A stretch of DNA of 30,265 nucleotides. Source: a virus. The notes under the pieces are model-generated. The model did not search any database, had not been told where the DNA came from, and was given only the letters and a program-made list of their open reading frames with translations. The DNA is taken from the IMG/VR virus record IMGVR_UViG_3300042317_002092, positions 1 through 30,265 of that record; one strand, written 5' to 3'. Positions 9,660 to 24,797 of the stretch are shown piece after piece. Within the stretch, counting starts at the first letter, position 1; each line of letters opens with the position of its first letter. The position numbers and the translations under genes are program-made.

Positions 9660-9704
9660 GCCGATGGTGTTTTGCAGATGGTTTTCTTCGAAGGAGATAT
9701 TTCG

Positions 9705-10313
9705 ATGACAGTAGCAGCGTATGTTCGAGTAAGCACAGCTTCGCAGAATGAGGCTGGACAAAAGCAGGAGATCTTGAGGTGGCTTGTTGGCAACGGCATC
9801 AACCCCAACAGCGTTATTTGGTACATCGACAAGGAGAGTGGCGAAACACTCAAGCGTCCTGAGTTCGAAAGCATGCAACGGGACATCTTCAACGGCGCAA
9901 TCAAAACCGTTGTGGTCTACAAGCTCGATCGGCTTTCGAGATCGCTCAAGGATGGTGTTGATACCCTTTGTTCGTGGTGCCAGGGTGGTATCAGGGTGGT
10001 TTCAACGTCTCAGCAGATCGATTTTACTGGCGCAATGGGACAACTCGTCGCCGCAGTGTTATTCGCAGTTGCGCAGTTCGAAACTGAGACTCGAAGGGAG
10101 CGCCAAGCGGCTGGAATCGCCGTTGCGAAGGAGAAAGGCGCTTACCGAGGTCGCATTCGTGGCGCTACCAAGGCTGGCGTTAATCCAGCTCGCGCGGCTG
10201 AACTGCGAGCGAAGGGTTTGAAACACGCGGAAGTAGCGCAAGCCATGGGTATCAGCGTGAGTACAGCGTTCCGATATGCGCAAGATGCTAAACGCGAAGC
10301 AGCAGGCAGGTAA
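9705..10313 (+). CDS. Serine recombinase (resolvase/invertase family)
   Basis: A 202-residue protein. The catalytic domain starts at once with AAYVRVST, placing the nucleophile at Ser10; the second active-site motif YKLDRLSRS (72-80) carries the conserved Arg residues. The long helix E region is rich in Arg/Glu (about 120-145). The C-terminus has a helix-turn-helix (HAEVAQAMGISVSTAFRYAQ). The length matches small resolvases and invertases, not the large phage integrases. It would make a four-strand break at a short paired site and resolve, invert or integrate DNA. The start is fixed by AAGGAGAT six bases before the ATG. The genes on either side face the other way. The gene-free DNA after it is rich in inverted repeats and is the obvious place to look for its site. 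Confidence 0.93.
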   Translation: MTVAAYVRVSTASQNEAGQKQEILRWLVGNGINPNSVIWYIDKESGETLKRPEFESMQRDIFNGAIKTVVVYKLDRLSRSLKDGVDTLCSWCQGGIRVVSTSQQIDFTGAMGQLVAAVLFAVAQFETETRRERQAAGIAVAKEKGAYRGRIRGATKAGVNPARAAELRAKGLKHAEVAQAMGISVSTAFRYAQDAKREAAGR

Positions 10314-15487: not shown

Positions 15488-15489
15488 AG

Positions 15490-15561
15490 TTCCCTGTGAA
15501 GGCTTCGAACCTTCCGTCTCCAAACCGAAGCTTGGTGTTTCGCCATCAAAACTTACAGGGA
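15490..15561 (-). ncRNA. tRNA-like fold, degenerate or divergent tRNA
   Basis: 72 nt on the minus strand fold as a cloverleaf: acceptor TCCCTGT/ACAGGGA (7 bp), D-arm GTTT/AAAC with TGATGGCG loop, anticodon-arm position CCAAGCTTCGGTTTGG, variable AGACG and a perfect T-arm GAAGG-TTCGAAG-CCTTC, then a discriminator A. The anticodon arm is one base short (loop of 6 or 8); if the T-turn is read normally the anticodon would be UCG (Arg). U8 is A here and no CCA is encoded. It is probably a decayed or divergent phage tRNA or a tRNA mimic. Confidence 0.55.
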
Positions 15562-19674: not shown

Positions 19675-19729
19675 GGGTAGGCACGTTGCCACCCACACAA
19701 CACCGCGCCAGTGAGACGGCGCACTTTTT
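19675..19729 (+). promoter_or_regulatory. Leader hairpins with terminator-like second stem
   Basis: Hairpin GGGTAGGCA/TGCCACCC (19675-19694, one bulge) and then GCGCC/GGCGC (19705-19722) followed by ACTTTTT (19723-19729) directly before the ribosome site of the first gene. It may attenuate the operon. Confidence 0.45.
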
Positions 19730-20124: not shown

Positions 20125-20208
20125 TCCGCTGCCAGTACGCGCACGAGGGGACTGCCCGAGTCCCCGACTGCCTGCACTGTTCGCAGGACAATCACACCTT
20201 ACAGCGGA
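20125..20208 (+). ncRNA. Intercistronic structured RNA element, copy A
   Basis: Hairpin 1 GGGGAC-TGCCCGA-GTCCCC (20147-20165), hairpin 2 CCTGC-ACTGTTC-GCAGG (20171-20187). Loop 2 ACTG (20176-20179) can pair with upstream CAGT (20133-20136). The whole is enclosed by TCCGCTG (20125-20131) and CAGCGGA (20202-20208); the latter covers three bases of the ribosome site GGAG (20206-20209) of the next gene, so closing it would hide that site. Confidence 0.6.
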
Positions 20209-20217
20209 GAAAAGACC

Positions 20218-20436
20218 GTGCCAACTTACACCCTTCAAGACACCTTCAACCAACGCGCAATCAGCAACCACCGCACCATCGAAACGGCGGTAAAGGCGCA
20301 GATTAAGCATCTGCGAGGAATCAAGCGATCCCACGGAGGAAGCAGCTATTTAACTTACACCGTACTGAGAAACGGCGAAGAACTAAGCGAGCAAGAGCAA
20401 AAGGAGTACATCGAACTGTGTTTTGCGATTCGCTAG
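20218..20436 (+). CDS. Hypothetical small protein
   Basis: A 72-residue basic protein, start GTG 20218 behind GGAGAAAAGACC. One N-terminal helix with many Gln/Lys (TIETAVKAQIKHLRGIKRS), a beta pair (SYLTYTVLRNGEEL) and a C-terminal helix. It is unknown; its translation may be gated by the RNA element before it. Confidence 0.6.
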   Translation: MPTYTLQDTFNQRAISNHRTIETAVKAQIKHLRGIKRSHGGSSYLTYTVLRNGEELSEQEQKEYIELCFAIR

Positions 20437-20537
20437 GCTCGGTGGGGTTAGGCCGAGTGCGGAGGGGTTCGCCCCTCGTCCCCAAGTTGACACAGTGTCA
20501 ACCGGATCACGGCAGGCGTGAGACCCTGCACAACAAT
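20437..20537 (+). ncRNA. Three-hairpin intercistronic spacer
   Basis: CTCGG/CCGAG (20438-20457), GAGGGG-TTCG-CCCCTC (20462-20477, a very stable UUCG tetraloop) and GTTGACA-CAG-TGTCAAC (20486-20502). None is followed by a T-run. It may be a distant relative of the repeated element or an RNA processing or stability signal. Confidence 0.5.
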
Positions 20538-20549
20538 GGAGACTCTGCT

Positions 20550-21008
20550 ATGAAGGCAGTATTTGAAACCCGCTTCCAGAAGATCGGCGAGACCGAGGAA
20601 CACTACGGCGGTATTCGCTCGGCACCTGTCGGAGGCGTCGACGATGCCAAAGAATTTGCGAGAAAACACCTAATACCGTACTTTGCGGACAAATGCGACC
20701 AAGAAGAGTTCGTGATTGTCACCCTCGACACCAAACACAGACCCATCCGCATCGTCCGGATCACTCGCGGCACCCTCGATGCAAGCCTAGTGCATCCCCG
20801 AGAGGTCTTTCGAGCTGCAATCGTCGATTGTGCCTCTGCCATGTTTTTGGCTCATAACCACCCCTCTGGCGACCCTACACCAAGCCCCGTAGATAGGGAT
20901 GTAACGCGCCGTCTCAAAGAAGTGGCTGCAATCGTCGGTATTCGCATCCTCGATCACCTGATCGTAGGCGACACCGTTTGTTCGATGGCGGAGCACGGTT
21001 GCTTCTAA
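20550..21008 (+). CDS. RadC-like JAB/MPN domain protein
   Basis: A 152-residue protein. The RadC/JAB metal site is complete: Glu85 in HPREVF, AHNHPSGDPTPSPVDRD (His102, His104, Ser112, Asp115). The N-terminal helix-hairpin-helix of long RadC proteins is missing. The biochemical role of RadC-family proteins is not settled; JAB folds in other systems are metallo-isopeptidases, and short phage forms are common in mobile DNA. The start at 20550 follows GGAG by eight bases. It is flanked by structured spacers on both sides. Confidence 0.88.
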   Translation: MKAVFETRFQKIGETEEHYGGIRSAPVGGVDDAKEFARKHLIPYFADKCDQEEFVIVTLDTKHRPIRIVRITRGTLDASLVHPREVFRAAIVDCASAMFLAHNHPSGDPTPSPVDRDVTRRLKEVAAIVGIRILDHLIVGDTVCSMAEHGCF

Positions 21009-21091
21009 TCGCATCTCCCGCTTGGTCCAGCACCCAGGCGGAACGTCTCACAGTGCTGGCGCGGTTGGCCGATGCGACATTCGGCTTTTTT
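21009..21091 (+). ncRNA. Pseudoknot leader with intrinsic terminator (riboswitch-like)
   Basis: An outer stem TCGCATC/GATGCGA (21009-21015 and 21071-21077) encloses a hairpin CCGCTTGG/CCAGGCGG (21018-21025, 21034-21041). Its 8-nt loop contains CCAGCAC (21027-21033), which pairs with GTGCTGG (21053-21059): a classical H-type pseudoknot with a 1-nt first loop and 11-nt last loop. Right after, GCCGA-TGCGACAT-TCGGC-TTTTTT (21068-21091) is an intrinsic terminator whose left arm shares two bases with the outer stem. Confidence 0.6.
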
Positions 21092-21120
21092 CCCACACAA
21101 CGCAATTGGAGATTTGCACA

Positions 21121-21744
21121 GTGCTCAAAGTTACACCGAACGGCGCGAACGCCAAGCTTGGTCCAGGCGTCGGCACGACATACCGTCCAGTCGGCATTAC
21201 CTGCCCGAACACCTGTCCGCTACTTGAAAATGGCTGCTATGCCAAGCGAGGACACGTCGCAATCCAGCAAGCTCGATCCGCACATGACGACCATGACTTG
21301 ATGCGGCTTGCGGGAAACACCCTGGTAAGGCACCTCGTTTCGGGCGATTGGCTGCGGACCATCGCCAACGGTCGCAAGATCCTTGACCGCGCCTTAGTGG
21401 CTGGCGTCCTGGAATTGCATCGCAGATGCCCATGGCTCACCGGATGGGGCTACACCCATGCGATTGATCGATTCGACCGAGCTGGCATCACCCCCGCAAG
21501 CCTGCCAAGCAATTTCCACCTGTTGGCATCATGCGACACGGCTGAGCAAAAGGCGGCACACAACGCGAACGGATGGAGGACCGCCCGAGTAATTGACGAA
21601 CTGACAGACAAGCAACCCGACGAGTTTGTTTGTCCCGTCGATGCACAGAAACGCAAAGGCATCCCACAAGAGCGCAGAACCAACTGCGCATTGTGCAAGG
21701 CATGTTTTAACACTGATCGAAACATCGCTTTTCTCAAGTTTTAA
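21121..21744 (+). CDS. Cys-rich phage protein (gp88-like)
   Basis: A 207-residue protein, start GTG 21121, nine bases after TTGGAG. A Cys cluster near the N-terminus (GITCPNTCPLLENGCYAKRG) and one near the end (CPVDAQKRKG, CALCKAC) frame a body with WLTGWGYTHAIDRFD. This resembles the uncharacterised family I know as phage gene product 88; the Cys sets could hold zinc or an iron-sulfur cluster. Role unknown. It is the first gene after the pseudoknot/terminator leader, so it is the best candidate for the target of that control. Confidence 0.7.
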   Translation: MLKVTPNGANAKLGPGVGTTYRPVGITCPNTCPLLENGCYAKRGHVAIQQARSAHDDHDLMRLAGNTLVRHLVSGDWLRTIANGRKILDRALVAGVLELHRRCPWLTGWGYTHAIDRFDRAGITPASLPSNFHLLASCDTAEQKAAHNANGWRTARVIDELTDKQPDEFVCPVDAQKRKGIPQERRTNCALCKACFNTDRNIAFLKF

Positions 21745-21760
21745 CCAAGGAGATCGAAAC

Positions 21761-21982
21761 ATGACCGCACTTGAACGCAAAACCAAGAGGCTACGCAACG
21801 CACTGCGAGACCTGTACGGAGACGACGAGTCTCTTGATACGATCATATCGGAGGCACTCGCCGACTTGCGGCATCTCTGCGATGCAGACGACGCTAGCTT
21901 CTCTGATCGTGACCGTATCGCGTACCAGCAATACCTGCACGAGAAAAACACACAGATGCGTTTTCAATTCGAAGACGCATAA
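21761..21982 (+). CDS. Hypothetical small acidic protein
   Basis: A 73-residue helical protein starting MTALERKTKRLRNALRDLYG with a very acidic middle (GDDESLDTIISEALAD). The start at 21761 follows AAGGAGATCGAAAC. It may fold as a helical hairpin. Unknown. Confidence 0.65.
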   Translation: MTALERKTKRLRNALRDLYGDDESLDTIISEALADLRHLCDADDASFSDRDRIAYQQYLHEKNTQMRFQFEDA

Positions 21983-22048
21983 CACGACCGAACAAGCCTT
22001 TTCGCGGGTAGGCTCCGCTTTTCACTGCTAACTTTGGAGATTTCTAAC

Positions 22049-22372
22049 ATGCTACGAACACTGAAAATCGTTCATACCACCTGGGGAGTATCCCAACACA
22101 GTCACGAGTTTGCGCCGGGTATCGTGCTGCATTCGACGGCAGGACACGGAGGAATTGTCCTCAGTGCTGCACGACACAAGGAGCTTCAGGCGAAATTTAA
22201 GTTCGCAACGTTCGCGGGAGGGTCCAACTACGAAGAAGATTGCGATGCTGCGGTTGTCGTTGTGGCGTTCCCGCAATTCTTCACCGAGAAACAGCAGCAA
22301 CAAGCAAGATCGCAAGTGTTAGCCAATCCCGAGTATTACGGCAACGTTGCCGCATGGGTCAAGGCGAACTAG
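22049..22372 (+). CDS. DUF7007-like protein
   Basis: A 107-residue protein. The pattern STAGHGGIVLSAARHKEL followed later by YEEDCDAAVVVVAFPQFF matches a domain I recall as DUF7007 (HGG-x-LS-x-x-R then YEEDC-W), found in phage and plasmid proteins with unknown function; this is from memory. The start at 22049 follows TTGGAGATTTCTAAC. The spacer before it has a possible GCGG/CCGC hairpin. Confidence 0.65.
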   Translation: MLRTLKIVHTTWGVSQHSHEFAPGIVLHSTAGHGGIVLSAARHKELQAKFKFATFAGGSNYEEDCDAAVVVVAFPQFFTEKQQQQARSQVLANPEYYGNVAAWVKAN

Positions 22373-22410
22373 GACATTTCAGGACAACCAACTACAAGGA
22401 GATTTTTACG

Positions 22411-22659
22411 ATGAACCAACAAATGCAAAGAGAGATCGGAGCACGACGGGGAGCGATAATGCTCTATAAGGCGAATCACCTCGTATGCGACCTGAAAAAA
22501 GGCGATTTATTTTGTTTTCCGAACAGTCCTCACGTTTTCGAATATCGTGGTCGAGGGTGGTATAGGTCAACCGCATTCCCAAATTCTGGCATGACGTACA
22601 GAACAGGCACGTTCACGGCATGTTTCCCGCAGTCGGCAACGTGTTTGGCGGCAAGCTAA
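22411..22659 (+). CDS. Hypothetical small protein
   Basis: An 82-residue protein starting MNQQMQREIGARRGAIMLYK. The middle has a beta-sandwich look (LKKGDLFCFPNSPHVFEYRGRGWYRS). Three Cys without clear pairs. The start follows ACAAGGAGATTTTTACG; ACAAGGAG also equals the core form of CsrA-binding sites. Unknown. Confidence 0.6.
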   Translation: MNQQMQREIGARRGAIMLYKANHLVCDLKKGDLFCFPNSPHVFEYRGRGWYRSTAFPNSGMTYRTGTFTACFPQSATCLAAS

Positions 22660-22719
22660 GACGTTTCGCGCGTGAGTCCATCGAACGCCCCGATGGACAA
22701 TCGCCTGCAACGTCGCAGG
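22660..22719 (+). ncRNA. Intercistronic structured RNA element, copy B
   Basis: GACGTT (22660-22665), conserved linker TCGCGCGTGAG, hairpin 1 GTCCATCG-AACGCCC-CGATGGAC (22676-22698), hairpin 2 CCTGC-AACGTC-GCAGG (22704-22719). Loop 2 AACGTC is the exact complement of the upstream GACGTT. Hairpin 1 differs fully in stem sequence from copies A, C and D but keeps the 7-nt loop with GCCC. Confidence 0.65.
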
Positions 22720-22750
22720 AATGTTTCACCCTATGTTTGGAGATAGTACG

Positions 22751-22927
22751 ATGAAAGTCACGATTGAGAACAACGAGTTGGTTATCCGCATCGCAATGCA
22801 AGAGCCACGACCATCGGCAAGCGGTAAAACGCTGGTTGTGGCGACCAGCAGCGGCAACAAGACGACTGAGGCGACCGTAAACGGGAAACCGATCACCATC
22901 GGTTTGAACGCCTACATCACTCGCTAG
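22751..22927 (+). CDS. Small conserved phage protein
   Basis: A 58-residue all-beta protein: MKVTIENNELVIRIAMQEP, then SASGKTLVVATSSGNKTTEA and GKPITIGLNAYI. This layout is widespread in tiny phage proteins as I recall, with no known role. The start follows TTGGAGATAGTACG. It is enclosed by two copies of the structured RNA element. Confidence 0.7.
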   Translation: MKVTIENNELVIRIAMQEPRPSASGKTLVVATSSGNKTTEATVNGKPITIGLNAYITR

Positions 22928-22929
22928 CC

Positions 22930-22984
22930 ACGTTTCGCGCACGAGGGGACCGCCCGAGTCCCTGAGTGCCTGCAACGTCGCAGG
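22930..22984 (+). ncRNA. Intercistronic structured RNA element, copy C
   Basis: ACGTT (22930-22934), linker TCGCGCACGA, hairpin 1 GGGAC-CGCCCGA-GTCCC (22946-22962), hairpin 2 CCTGC-AACGTC-GCAGG (22969-22984), whose loop pairs with ACGTT over five bases. Hairpin 2 and the first 11 bases are identical to copy B, while hairpin 1 is like copy A. Confidence 0.65.
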
Positions 22985-23011
22985 AACACAACAACACAAG
23001 GAGATTTTGCA

Positions 23012-23473
23012 ATGTCAGAACGATTTATCACGATCAACACCGTCACCGCTCAACCATTTGAGGATTGCGGGAGGATGCTTACCCCTCGATTGCACTTGAT
23101 AGTCAGTTACACGACTGGAGGAATGTGCTACTTCACTGGCAATCGATACTCGCGAGGGTATGAGATTGCTGTGCGGCATGATCGATCATCCAACGAAGGA
23201 TGGGTATCGATCATCATTGACGGCAGAGGCAACCCGACAGCAATAGTTGAACAGGCTGCACGATTCTCGCAAAAGACGCTTAAAAGGATCGCCAATGATG
23301 TCCGATGCGGCAAGCACAATGCGACAATCAATGCTTTGTACGCAAATGCAAAAGCGAACCGATCGGCATACCAGTGGCCTGAAGGCATCATGGCGAAGCC
23401 TGACGCAATTCCAAGTGATGGCTTTGCTGATGGCGGCGAGCCATACACCAACGAAGAATTGCAGATTGCGTAA
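23012..23473 (+). CDS. Hypothetical protein, paralogue of the 24342 gene
   Basis: A 153-residue protein. The first 90 residues share a pattern with the gene at 24342: TINTVTAQPF, RMLTPRLHLIVSYTTGG, SRGYEIAVRHDR, IDGRGNP and a later R-AYQWPEGI. It looks like a beta-rich N-terminal domain and a helical tail. The start follows ACACAAGGAGATTTTGCA. Function unknown. Confidence 0.7.
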   Translation: MSERFITINTVTAQPFEDCGRMLTPRLHLIVSYTTGGMCYFTGNRYSRGYEIAVRHDRSSNEGWVSIIIDGRGNPTAIVEQAARFSQKTLKRIANDVRCGKHNATINALYANAKANRSAYQWPEGIMAKPDAIPSDGFADGGEPYTNEELQIA

Positions 23474-23653
23474 ACTCAAGAAACATGGTGCGCGGTACGA
23501 GCCACATCGACCGCACGGCTAGAGCGTGTTTTGAACTTTCGCGCGGCTAGCCGATTCGGCGCGCAACTGAGCGGATGCGCCAGCATCGCGGGTTCGACCC
23601 CGCCGCCGAATTTGCCCCCTGCCGGGATGGGCTCCGGTTTACTCACACTTTTT
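23474..23653 (+). ncRNA. Structured spacer with tRNA-like fold lacking the anticodon arm
   Basis: After two stems (GTG-CGGT/ACCG-CAC near 23488-23516 and CGGCTAG/CTAGCCG at 23516-23553) a cloverleaf-like unit follows at 23555-23610: acceptor TTCGGCG/CGCCGAA, D-arm CGCA/TGCG with a 10-nt loop holding GG, an 8-nt link and a T-arm GCGGG-TTCGAC-CCCGC with the tRNA-type TTCGA. It is 56 nt, which is a 73-nt tRNA minus a 17-nt anticodon arm. The T loop is 6 instead of 7. Confidence 0.55.
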
Positions 23654-23668
23654 TTGGAGATGATGAAA

Positions 23669-24232
23669 ATGGAAAGACCGCAGTCGATAAGAACGAAAGC
23701 TGAATATCTGCAAATTATCATGCGAGAGTTAACGCCGACGGAACTTGCGCTCGTAAACGTAACAATTTACGGAAGTGCAAAACACAAAAAATACTACGAT
23801 ATGTACCACGAAGGGCGATTCCAAGATTGCTGGGATTACCTCATGGCTAATCGCGGAGAAATGACACTTGACAATGCTCCTGAATCCCAAAGAGAGATGG
23901 CAAAAAAAGCTATCGCGGATTCCATTGGCATGCACTCAAACAAGAACGATCCTCCTGTCCTTGTGACTATTGATCCCTACATGGACCGAATTATTTCAGC
24001 TAAGAAAAAGCACCCTGATTTTTTTAGTGCTGGCGTAAGCGATTGCTGCGTACAGCACGACCCTGGTTGCAACATGCTCAACAATGGTGCTTGCAATTGC
24101 GTCCCAGACATTACGATCACATCCCAATCAGGAAAGTTTAGCGTTGATTCCAATGGAGATTGCCAGCGACTAGGGACGGAAGGGGATTTGATTCCAACGA
24201 TGATTGACCTGCGACAGGTCGACTTGAACTAG
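23669..24232 (+). CDS. Hypothetical protein with Cys-rich C-terminus
   Basis: A 187-residue protein starting MERPQSIRTKAEYLQIIMRE, nine bases after GGAG (two earlier in-frame ATGs are too close to it). The N-terminal 100 residues are helical (TPTELALVNVTIYGSAKHKKYYDMY). The C-terminal part has DCCVQHDPGCNMLNNGACNC, a dense Cys cluster likely to bind metal or form disulfides. Codons are more A/T-rich than in the neighbours, which hints at a separate origin. Confidence 0.65.
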   Translation: MERPQSIRTKAEYLQIIMRELTPTELALVNVTIYGSAKHKKYYDMYHEGRFQDCWDYLMANRGEMTLDNAPESQREMAKKAIADSIGMHSNKNDPPVLVTIDPYMDRIISAKKKHPDFFSAGVSDCCVQHDPGCNMLNNGACNCVPDITITSQSGKFSVDSNGDCQRLGTEGDLIPTMIDLRQVDLN

Positions 24233-24242
24233 ACACCATGTC

Positions 24243-24300
24243 GGCGACGCGAACACGAGGGGATTCGCCCAATCCCCGACTGTCCGCGCCCCTGGCAGTC
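24243..24300 (+). ncRNA. Intercistronic structured RNA element, copy D
   Basis: GGCG (24243-24246), linker ACGCGAACACGA, hairpin 1 GGGGAT-TCGCCCA-ATCCCC (24259-24277), hairpin 2 GACTG/CAGTC (24278-24300) with a 13-nt loop containing CGCC (24287-24290), complementary to GGCG. The most divergent copy, but the pairing scheme is kept. Confidence 0.5.
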
Positions 24301-24341
24301 AGAGGCAGGATAGCACCATTGCAAAGGAGATTGCACACACC

Positions 24342-24797
24342 ATGACATCCGTAACGATTAAGACCGTCACGGCTCCCTCGTTCATTGAGCGCGGCACAAG
24401 GCTCACGCCACGGCTGCACTTGGTTGTTGATTACACGAAAGGAGGGACCAGCCTGATTAACGGCAAGCACTACCCCCGAGGATATCAGATTTCCGTCCGG
24501 TTCGACCGACTAGCTGACGATGGCACGACATCGCAGGTCATCGACGGCAAAGGAGATCCGTCGCTGTGCATCGAACCATCACCACGGTTCACCAAGAAGC
24601 GACTGGATAGCATTGTCGCGGAAGTCTATGGCGAGCTGCATCAACGGCTCATCAGGGAACTGTACCGCCAAGCAACGGCGGACCGCAGCAACCACGTTTG
24701 GCCTGAGTCCATCTTGCCGTTGGTGGACAAAGAAGCGGGTTTACATGAAGCGGTTGTAGCTGTTGTTAATGGGATAGCGGAGACGCTCGACCAATGA
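24342..24797 (+). CDS. Hypothetical protein, paralogue of the 23012 gene
   Basis: A 151-residue protein related to the 23012 gene: TIKTVTAPSF, RLTPRLHLVVDYTKGG, PRGYQISVRFDR, IDGKGDP and R-NHVWPESI line up in order. The C-terminal third is unrelated. ATGA overlap with the next gene. Both paralogues stand behind a copy of the structured RNA element, so gene and element may have been duplicated together. Confidence 0.7.
   Translation: MTSVTIKTVTAPSFIERGTRLTPRLHLVVDYTKGGTSLINGKHYPRGYQISVRFDRLADDGTTSQVIDGKGDPSLCIEPSPRFTKKRLDSIVAEVYGELHQRLIRELYRQATADRSNHVWPESILPLVDKEAGLHEAVVAVVNGIAETLDQ

Follow-up and report, generated by a model that had tools for sequence, protein, structure and literature searches.

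A statistically supported RNA family that is absent from Rfam recurs between the genes of a group of related phages, where it forms a multi-copy intergenic RNA with an unusual fold. As shown by comparison of its copies, the element is about 60 nt long and, when transcribed, would fold as a compact pseudoknot. Its most likely role, to which we assign a probability of about 0.45 and for which we infer cleavage, is junction processing, that is, the cutting or ending of the message between genes.

The window, by which we mean the whole stretch of 30,265 nucleotides analysed, is IMG/VR virus record IMGVR_UViG_3300042317_002092. Structural genes, including one for a large-terminase-like protein, lie on its minus strand, and a plus-strand run of small genes at about 19.7-27 kb houses copies A to D of the element in four spacers of one operon (Table 1). 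At 66% and 52% identity, relatives of the large terminase turn up in MAG contigs that bear the labels Pirellulaceae and Planctomycetaceae, whereas the named phages of the known phage collection offer only distant ones (<30% identity), so that a planctomycete is the likely host of the window phage and its kin. The operon also contains a terminator-like hairpin with a T run at 21067-21086, between RadC-like and GP88-like genes. On the minus strand at 15489-15561, ARAGORN calls a tRNA whose two-base anticodon is undetermined. The spacer 5' of the gene ahead of copy D contains, at 23555-23611, a tRNA-like sequence that has an acceptor-like stem of 7 bp and a T-arm (GCGGGTTCGACCCCGC) but is devoid of an anticodon arm.

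Table 1. Intergenic RNA elements in the window and their parts
Feature	Position	Strand	Remarks
Copy A	20131-20190	+	cmsearch 70.3 bits, E 3e-14; starts 6 nt past TAA of ORF ending 20124
Copy A, 5' parts	P1a 20131-20136, J1 20137-20140, P2a 20141-20143, hairpin 1 20147-20165	+	
Copy A, 3' parts	P2b 20169-20171, P3a 20172-20175, loop/P1b 20176-20182, P3b 20183-20186	+	
Copy B	22660-22722	+	cmsearch 68.3 bits, E 1e-13; abuts TAA of ORF ending 22659
Copy B, 5' parts	P1a 22660-22665, P2a 22670-22672, hairpin 1 22676-22698	+	
Copy B, 3' parts	P2b 22702-22704, P3a 22705-22708, loop/P1b 22709-22714, P3b 22715-22718	+	
Copy C	22929-22987	+	cmsearch 77.5 bits, E 5.5e-16; 1 nt past TAG of ORF ending 22927
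Copy C, 5' parts	P1a 22929-22934, P2a 22939-22941, hairpin 1 22945-22963	+	
Copy C, 3' parts	P2b 22967-22969, P3a 22970-22973, loop/P1b 22974-22979, P3b 22980-22983	+	
Copy D (divergent, D-type)	24243-24312	+	cmsearch 33.7 bits, E 2.9e-5; 10 nt past TAG of ORF ending 24232
Copy D, parts	P2a 24253-24255, hairpin 1 24259-24277, P2b 24281-24283, enlarged 3' hairpin 24284-24308	+	P1 mostly lost
Companion family 2, pistol-like without P1	20438-20483	+	spacer between ORF ending 20436 and ORF starting 20550; CTCGG-T-GGGG-TTAGG-CCGAG-TGCGG-hairpin-CGTCCCC
Companion family 3, hairpin with (A/C)GUGAGAC loop	20512-20529 and 19705-19722	+	just before ribosome site

Fold and covariation of the element

The plan of the element, from 5' to 3', is P1a, a linker NCGN, P2a, YGA, hairpin 1, RAY, P2b, P3a, P1b as a loop, and P3b. 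Hairpin 1 sits on the short P2 helix through the YGA/RAY internal loop, whose GA is missing in a few copies; P2 leads straight into the small hairpin P3 (CYGC/GCRG), and the P3 loop pairs with the P1 strand at the 5' end. Across copies the P2 helix flanking hairpin 1 reads GCA/TGC, GCG/CGC, GCC/GGC, GGG/CCC, CTC/GAG or GAA/TTC, its inner pair being seen in all four Watson-Crick forms, and the core pairs of P1 alternate likewise (U-A, C-G, G-C, and G-C versus A-U). The sequence of hairpin 1 varies freely. P3 is almost constant (C, U/C, G, C), and the linker holds near-invariant bases, a C in 28 of 32 copies and a G in 31 of 32, of a kind that is scarce in the unpaired core. Folding energies (z -1.0 to -2.9) are not decisive by themselves, because a pseudoknot is expected to behave in this way. 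A nested alternative, in which the linker pairs with the 5' strand of P3 at the expense of P3 itself, was considered; ordinary copies show no covariation between these two strands, and P3 is therefore preferred there. The same nested pairing is possible in D-type copies.

The seed alignment consisted of ten sequences, namely copies A, B and C together with seven relatives obtained by way of a DNA pattern and terminase-bearing contigs. In the seed, 94% of cells are paired and nine of 19 pairs have two-sided changes, as against no more than 46% paired in slid controls. A covariance-model search had been proposed in the initial annotation, and the model built on the ten seeds (R1) recovered copy D, which had been left out of training, together with over 20 additional copies from related phages, bringing the family to over 32 copies, with one to five per genome. 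The E-values of A to C (1e-13 to 5e-16) belong to training members, and that of the untrained copy D is 3e-5; the resemblance among the spacers is thus more than chance. For the larger analysis, 32 copies were segmented by hand and the structural alignment was hand-made and structure-aware. Over 33 distinct copies, 95.6% of pairs form, 13 of 17 show two-sided change, and the covariation score is 0.551 versus at most 0.11 in slid controls. For the four pairs of the pseudoknot core, an alignment to a model from which P1 had been omitted shows 95.5% standard pairing, with two-sided changes at every pair. Under a tree null that redistributes substitutions, and which is weakened by recombination among copies, seven of the proposed pairs take the top seven ranks among all 1081 column pairs. 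Six of them have E < 0.05, comprising one in P2, which is the strongest of all, four in hairpin 1 and one in P1 (pseudoknot pair 3-38), while a second P1 pair stands at E 0.145. The covariation first noticed among the four window copies is therefore genuine, extends to the pseudoknot, and is significant in the larger alignment under this substitution-redistribution null.

Copies beyond the training set repeat the plan. For instance, a held-out record (G422), to which only the pistol-like pattern described below had led, contains a copy (L269) at E 8e-13 with the plan confirmed, and a divergent copy in a Planctomycetaceae contig (L234), outside the final model, preserves the plan with P1, P2 and P3 sequences of its own. 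A search of 0.64 Mb around pattern matches in other viral contigs returned four matches at E <1e-3, three of them copies from a single relative and the fourth due to chance. A loose pattern scan gave chiefly chance matches, among which L139 alone is real and L193 was ruled out by its failing P1. Searching with the protein encoded after copy C revealed no relatives in viral contigs. Among 392 sampled planctomycete genomes there were eight weak matches; only one phage-like contig (L234/L242) keeps all helices, and the remaining matches look like chance, so there is no convincing chromosomal copy of the kind expected of a REP-like host repeat.

Of what the initial annotation had claimed for the window, much stands for copies A, B and C, which share the pseudoknotted fold, including the order of strand, linker, hairpin 1 and second hairpin and the pairing of the last loop back to the first strand. 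The GCCC that had been ascribed to the 7-nt loop of hairpin 1 is found in just 18 of 32 copies. Copy D proves to be a divergent subtype. Besides window D, the D-type copies include L003:3521, L139:2712, L051:1536 and relatives. P2, the internal loop and hairpin 1 persist in them, the 3' hairpin is enlarged, and of the P1 core pairs just two survive. The GGCG/CGCC pairing proposed for D is unsupported because copies of this type keep little P1; to illustrate, GGCG is absent from its nearest relative, L003:3521-3587, which has the same downstream gene. An analogy to a T-loop contacting a D-loop is not supported, as the tRNA T-loop consensus UUCRANY occurs in none of 32 copies. That annotation did not include the P2 helix, the pistol-like element or the linkage to junctions rather than genes. 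Another junction, L047:2579-2678, seemingly has the 3' hairpin alone (CCTGCAATGTCGCAGG) past the stop codon, and is perhaps a truncated copy.

The lack of a named family for the element is borne out by Rfam 15, which yields no family match in the window and nothing relevant for the element at E<=10, including when copy C is searched alone. Hammerhead identity is ruled out in all permutations: the CUGANGA block, which permuted hammerhead types retain (PMC10085705), is absent from all 32 copies. HDV and twister ribozymes, likewise considered as kin, gave no Rfam match, and cmscan gave no pistol match to copies A to D. A match to a known terminator or repeat would have spoken against the element, and none was found; the terminator scan (GC stem with a direct U run) lists none of the four copies. 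Nor does the element have the GTT/AAC core that integron attC sites, imperfect hairpins used with IntI, carry at both ends, since copy A has CAGT/ACTG and copy D GAC/GCC at the core pairs and the fold is a pseudoknot. No description of the element in planctomycete phages was found in the open-access literature.

Gene junctions and a pistol-like companion

In nearly all copies the element begins 0-12 nt past the upstream stop codon (median about 1), and some 25 nt separate its end from the next start. Its orientation is always coding, and the P2/hairpin-1 core folds better on the coding strand than on the complement in 22 copies versus 9, a modest bias; together these suggest that the element acts as RNA rather than DNA. 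An outer stem that had been proposed to hide the ribosome site of copy A (TCCGCTG/CAGCGGA) does fold in silico but is not conserved, as L004:2853-2912 carries the 5' arm without its complement, and masking is unsupported as a general feature given that the Shine-Dalgarno sequence is inconsistently paired (median unpaired probability 0.54).

The 32 junctions adjoin 38 unrelated gene clusters, and a single gene may lie 3' of one copy and 5' of another with different partners. This implies that the element belongs to junctions and not to particular genes. Copies that share a neighbour gene, on either side, are more alike than random pairs, and some of these pairs are alike in the matching half only, which indicates that genes shuffle as small modules with breakpoints at or within the elements. 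The element is therefore not the regulator of one gene. A serine recombinase of the DNA invertase type, encoded at 9672-10313, is a possible contributor to the shuffling. Paralogous genes at 23012-23473 and 24342-24797 lie directly 3' of copies C and D, and the element precedes this gene family in several phages.

Weak Rfam matches to Pistol (RF02679), one of them at 20444-20483, led to a second family in the same phages. Its general layout is a 5-nt strand, GGGG, UUAGG, the complementary strand, YGCGG, a hairpin, CGU and CCCC, which amounts to a 45-nt pistol core (model positions 23-68) without the first hairpin, P1, and its linker. The 25 copies found are spread over roughly a dozen phages, with up to four per genome (window, L033, L043, L091, L257-L268). 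The pseudoknot strand pairs in all 25, in nine compensated sequence combinations. Scores against RF02679 are 25-33 bits, the best ones at 27-33 bits and the highest, 32.9, falling short of the curated 34.5. The copies have the pistol core (UUAgG..AG.GCG-hairpin-GU, with closing stem and pseudoknot), including its GU cleavage site, but neither the P1 hairpin nor the A-rich linker of pistol; ahead of GCG, the copies inspected carry U or C where pistol has a conserved A, a position at which the search pattern itself required U/C. The companion is possibly a reduced pistol ribozyme, whose own activity is putative given that P1 and the linker are missing. A third family consists of hairpins with covarying stems and a constant loop, present in several related phages (L268, L264, L266, L270). 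These are often directly before ribosome sites and look like a protein-binding or translational element.

Eight of the ten records with a pistol-like element also have the new element. In at least five gene families, the new element stands at the junction in one phage and a pistol-like element on the same side in another. To illustrate, the gene upstream of copy A has a 72% identical relative in L266 that is followed by a pistol-like element, and the gene downstream of L004:2212 is preceded by one in five phages; the same swap is seen for the genes before and after L029:4407 and before L004:2853. Such exchange of a new fold with a ribozyme-like element is unusual. Since two unrelated folds are interchangeable beside many unrelated genes, a single generic RNA-level job is indicated, one that the new fold and the pistol-like element probably share.

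Possible roles at gene junctions

We propose that the element would serve as cis-acting punctuation of the polycistronic phage message, with the fold presumably acting in the same way at any junction. A cut at the element, made by the RNA itself or by a nuclease, would separate the upstream and downstream cistrons and leave structured, defined RNA ends, which could allow gene-by-gene control of stability. Structured spacers at which polycistronic phage message is cut are familiar from the RNase III sites between T7 genes, although those are plain hairpins served by a host enzyme, unlike the covarying pseudoknot here. The HDV ribozyme has a double-pseudoknot order, and neither this order nor the tRNA association of the HDV-like theta ribozymes is present in the new element. 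Theta ribozymes of gut phages are small RNAs proposed to process phage transcripts (PMC10879173).

Junction processing is favoured because the companion has a self-cleaving ribozyme core with its GU cleavage site, and because prophage hammerhead arrays, which flank varying single genes or short blocks, have been proposed to cut long phage transcripts (PMC3088659). Like those arrays, the new element occurs as several copies per phage with variable flanked genes and a small compact fold, but it lacks the CUGANGA core and differs in topology. Like pistol, it is small and has a pseudoknot in which a hairpin loop pairs with a remote strand, and a pistol-like relative occurs in the same phages and at junctions of the same gene families. 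It gives no sequence match to pistol, however, and circular permutation does not turn one strand order into the other. As a sub-case of processing, self-cleavage by the element itself is a doubtful proposition, and a structural contact in a groove would explain the conserved linker just as well. We consider it similarly doubtful that a new self-cleaving ribozyme class and a P1-less pistol act as interchangeable punctuation that cuts the message into single-gene pieces.

The main rival, which we regard as rather unlikely, is a device that insulates or couples translation while the message stays uncut. A ribosome at the upstream stop would cover P1 and the linker, and the fold would form only once upstream translation ceases, thereupon blocking ribosome run-on or tuning reinitiation at the downstream start. 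The location inside the footprint of a terminating ribosome, the tight spacing to the next start and the independence from any one gene all agree with such a device, but the Shine-Dalgarno sequence is not consistently sequestered and replacement by a pistol-like element reads more naturally as processing. A lower probability attaches to a post-transcriptional regulon, in which the flanked genes would be controlled together by a small molecule, or by a protein of phage or host, that recognises the conserved pseudoknot. The compact pseudoknot with its near-constant linker would suit a ligand, and there is a precedent in the SAS and ESAS of cluster K mycobacteriophages, which are multi-copy elements of unknown function just ahead of the starts of many unrelated genes (PMC3203893). 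Those consist of a start-site sequence of 13 bp and an inverted repeat of 17 bp, and are not known to have a pseudoknot or compensatory pairing. However, nearly half of the hairpin 1 loops do without GCCC, most stem sequences are freely variable, the flanked genes come from many unrelated families, and a second, unrelated fold is able to replace the element at junctions of the same gene families.

The shuffling of partners around the elements, the tendency of an element half to follow its neighbour gene in several pairs, and the recombinase gene in the window would all fit a DNA-level site, where short homology or an attC-like folded single strand recombines small genes as cassettes. This is improbable, as compensatory changes preserve a pseudoknot that strand exchange does not need, folding shows the modest coding-strand bias, and the shuffling may be a by-product; moreover, with pistol-like elements at junctions of the same families, one recombinase site cannot explain both folds. 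Least probable by our estimate is a stabiliser of transcript ends or REP-like hairpin that acts without cleavage and needs no pseudoknot. The strong hairpin 1 directly past stop codons is what such a stabiliser would present, but P1 and P2 covary, so that more than a hairpin is retained, and the terminator scan is silent on all the window copies.

The gene families that have the new fold in one phage and the pistol-like fold in another at the same kind of junction provide a natural comparison, and the part played by small ribozymes in phage operons, a long-standing question, becomes directly testable. The new element also offers a well-defined candidate for a further class of self-cleaving RNA, and should the pistol-like companion be active without P1, the minimal pistol ribozyme would need revision.
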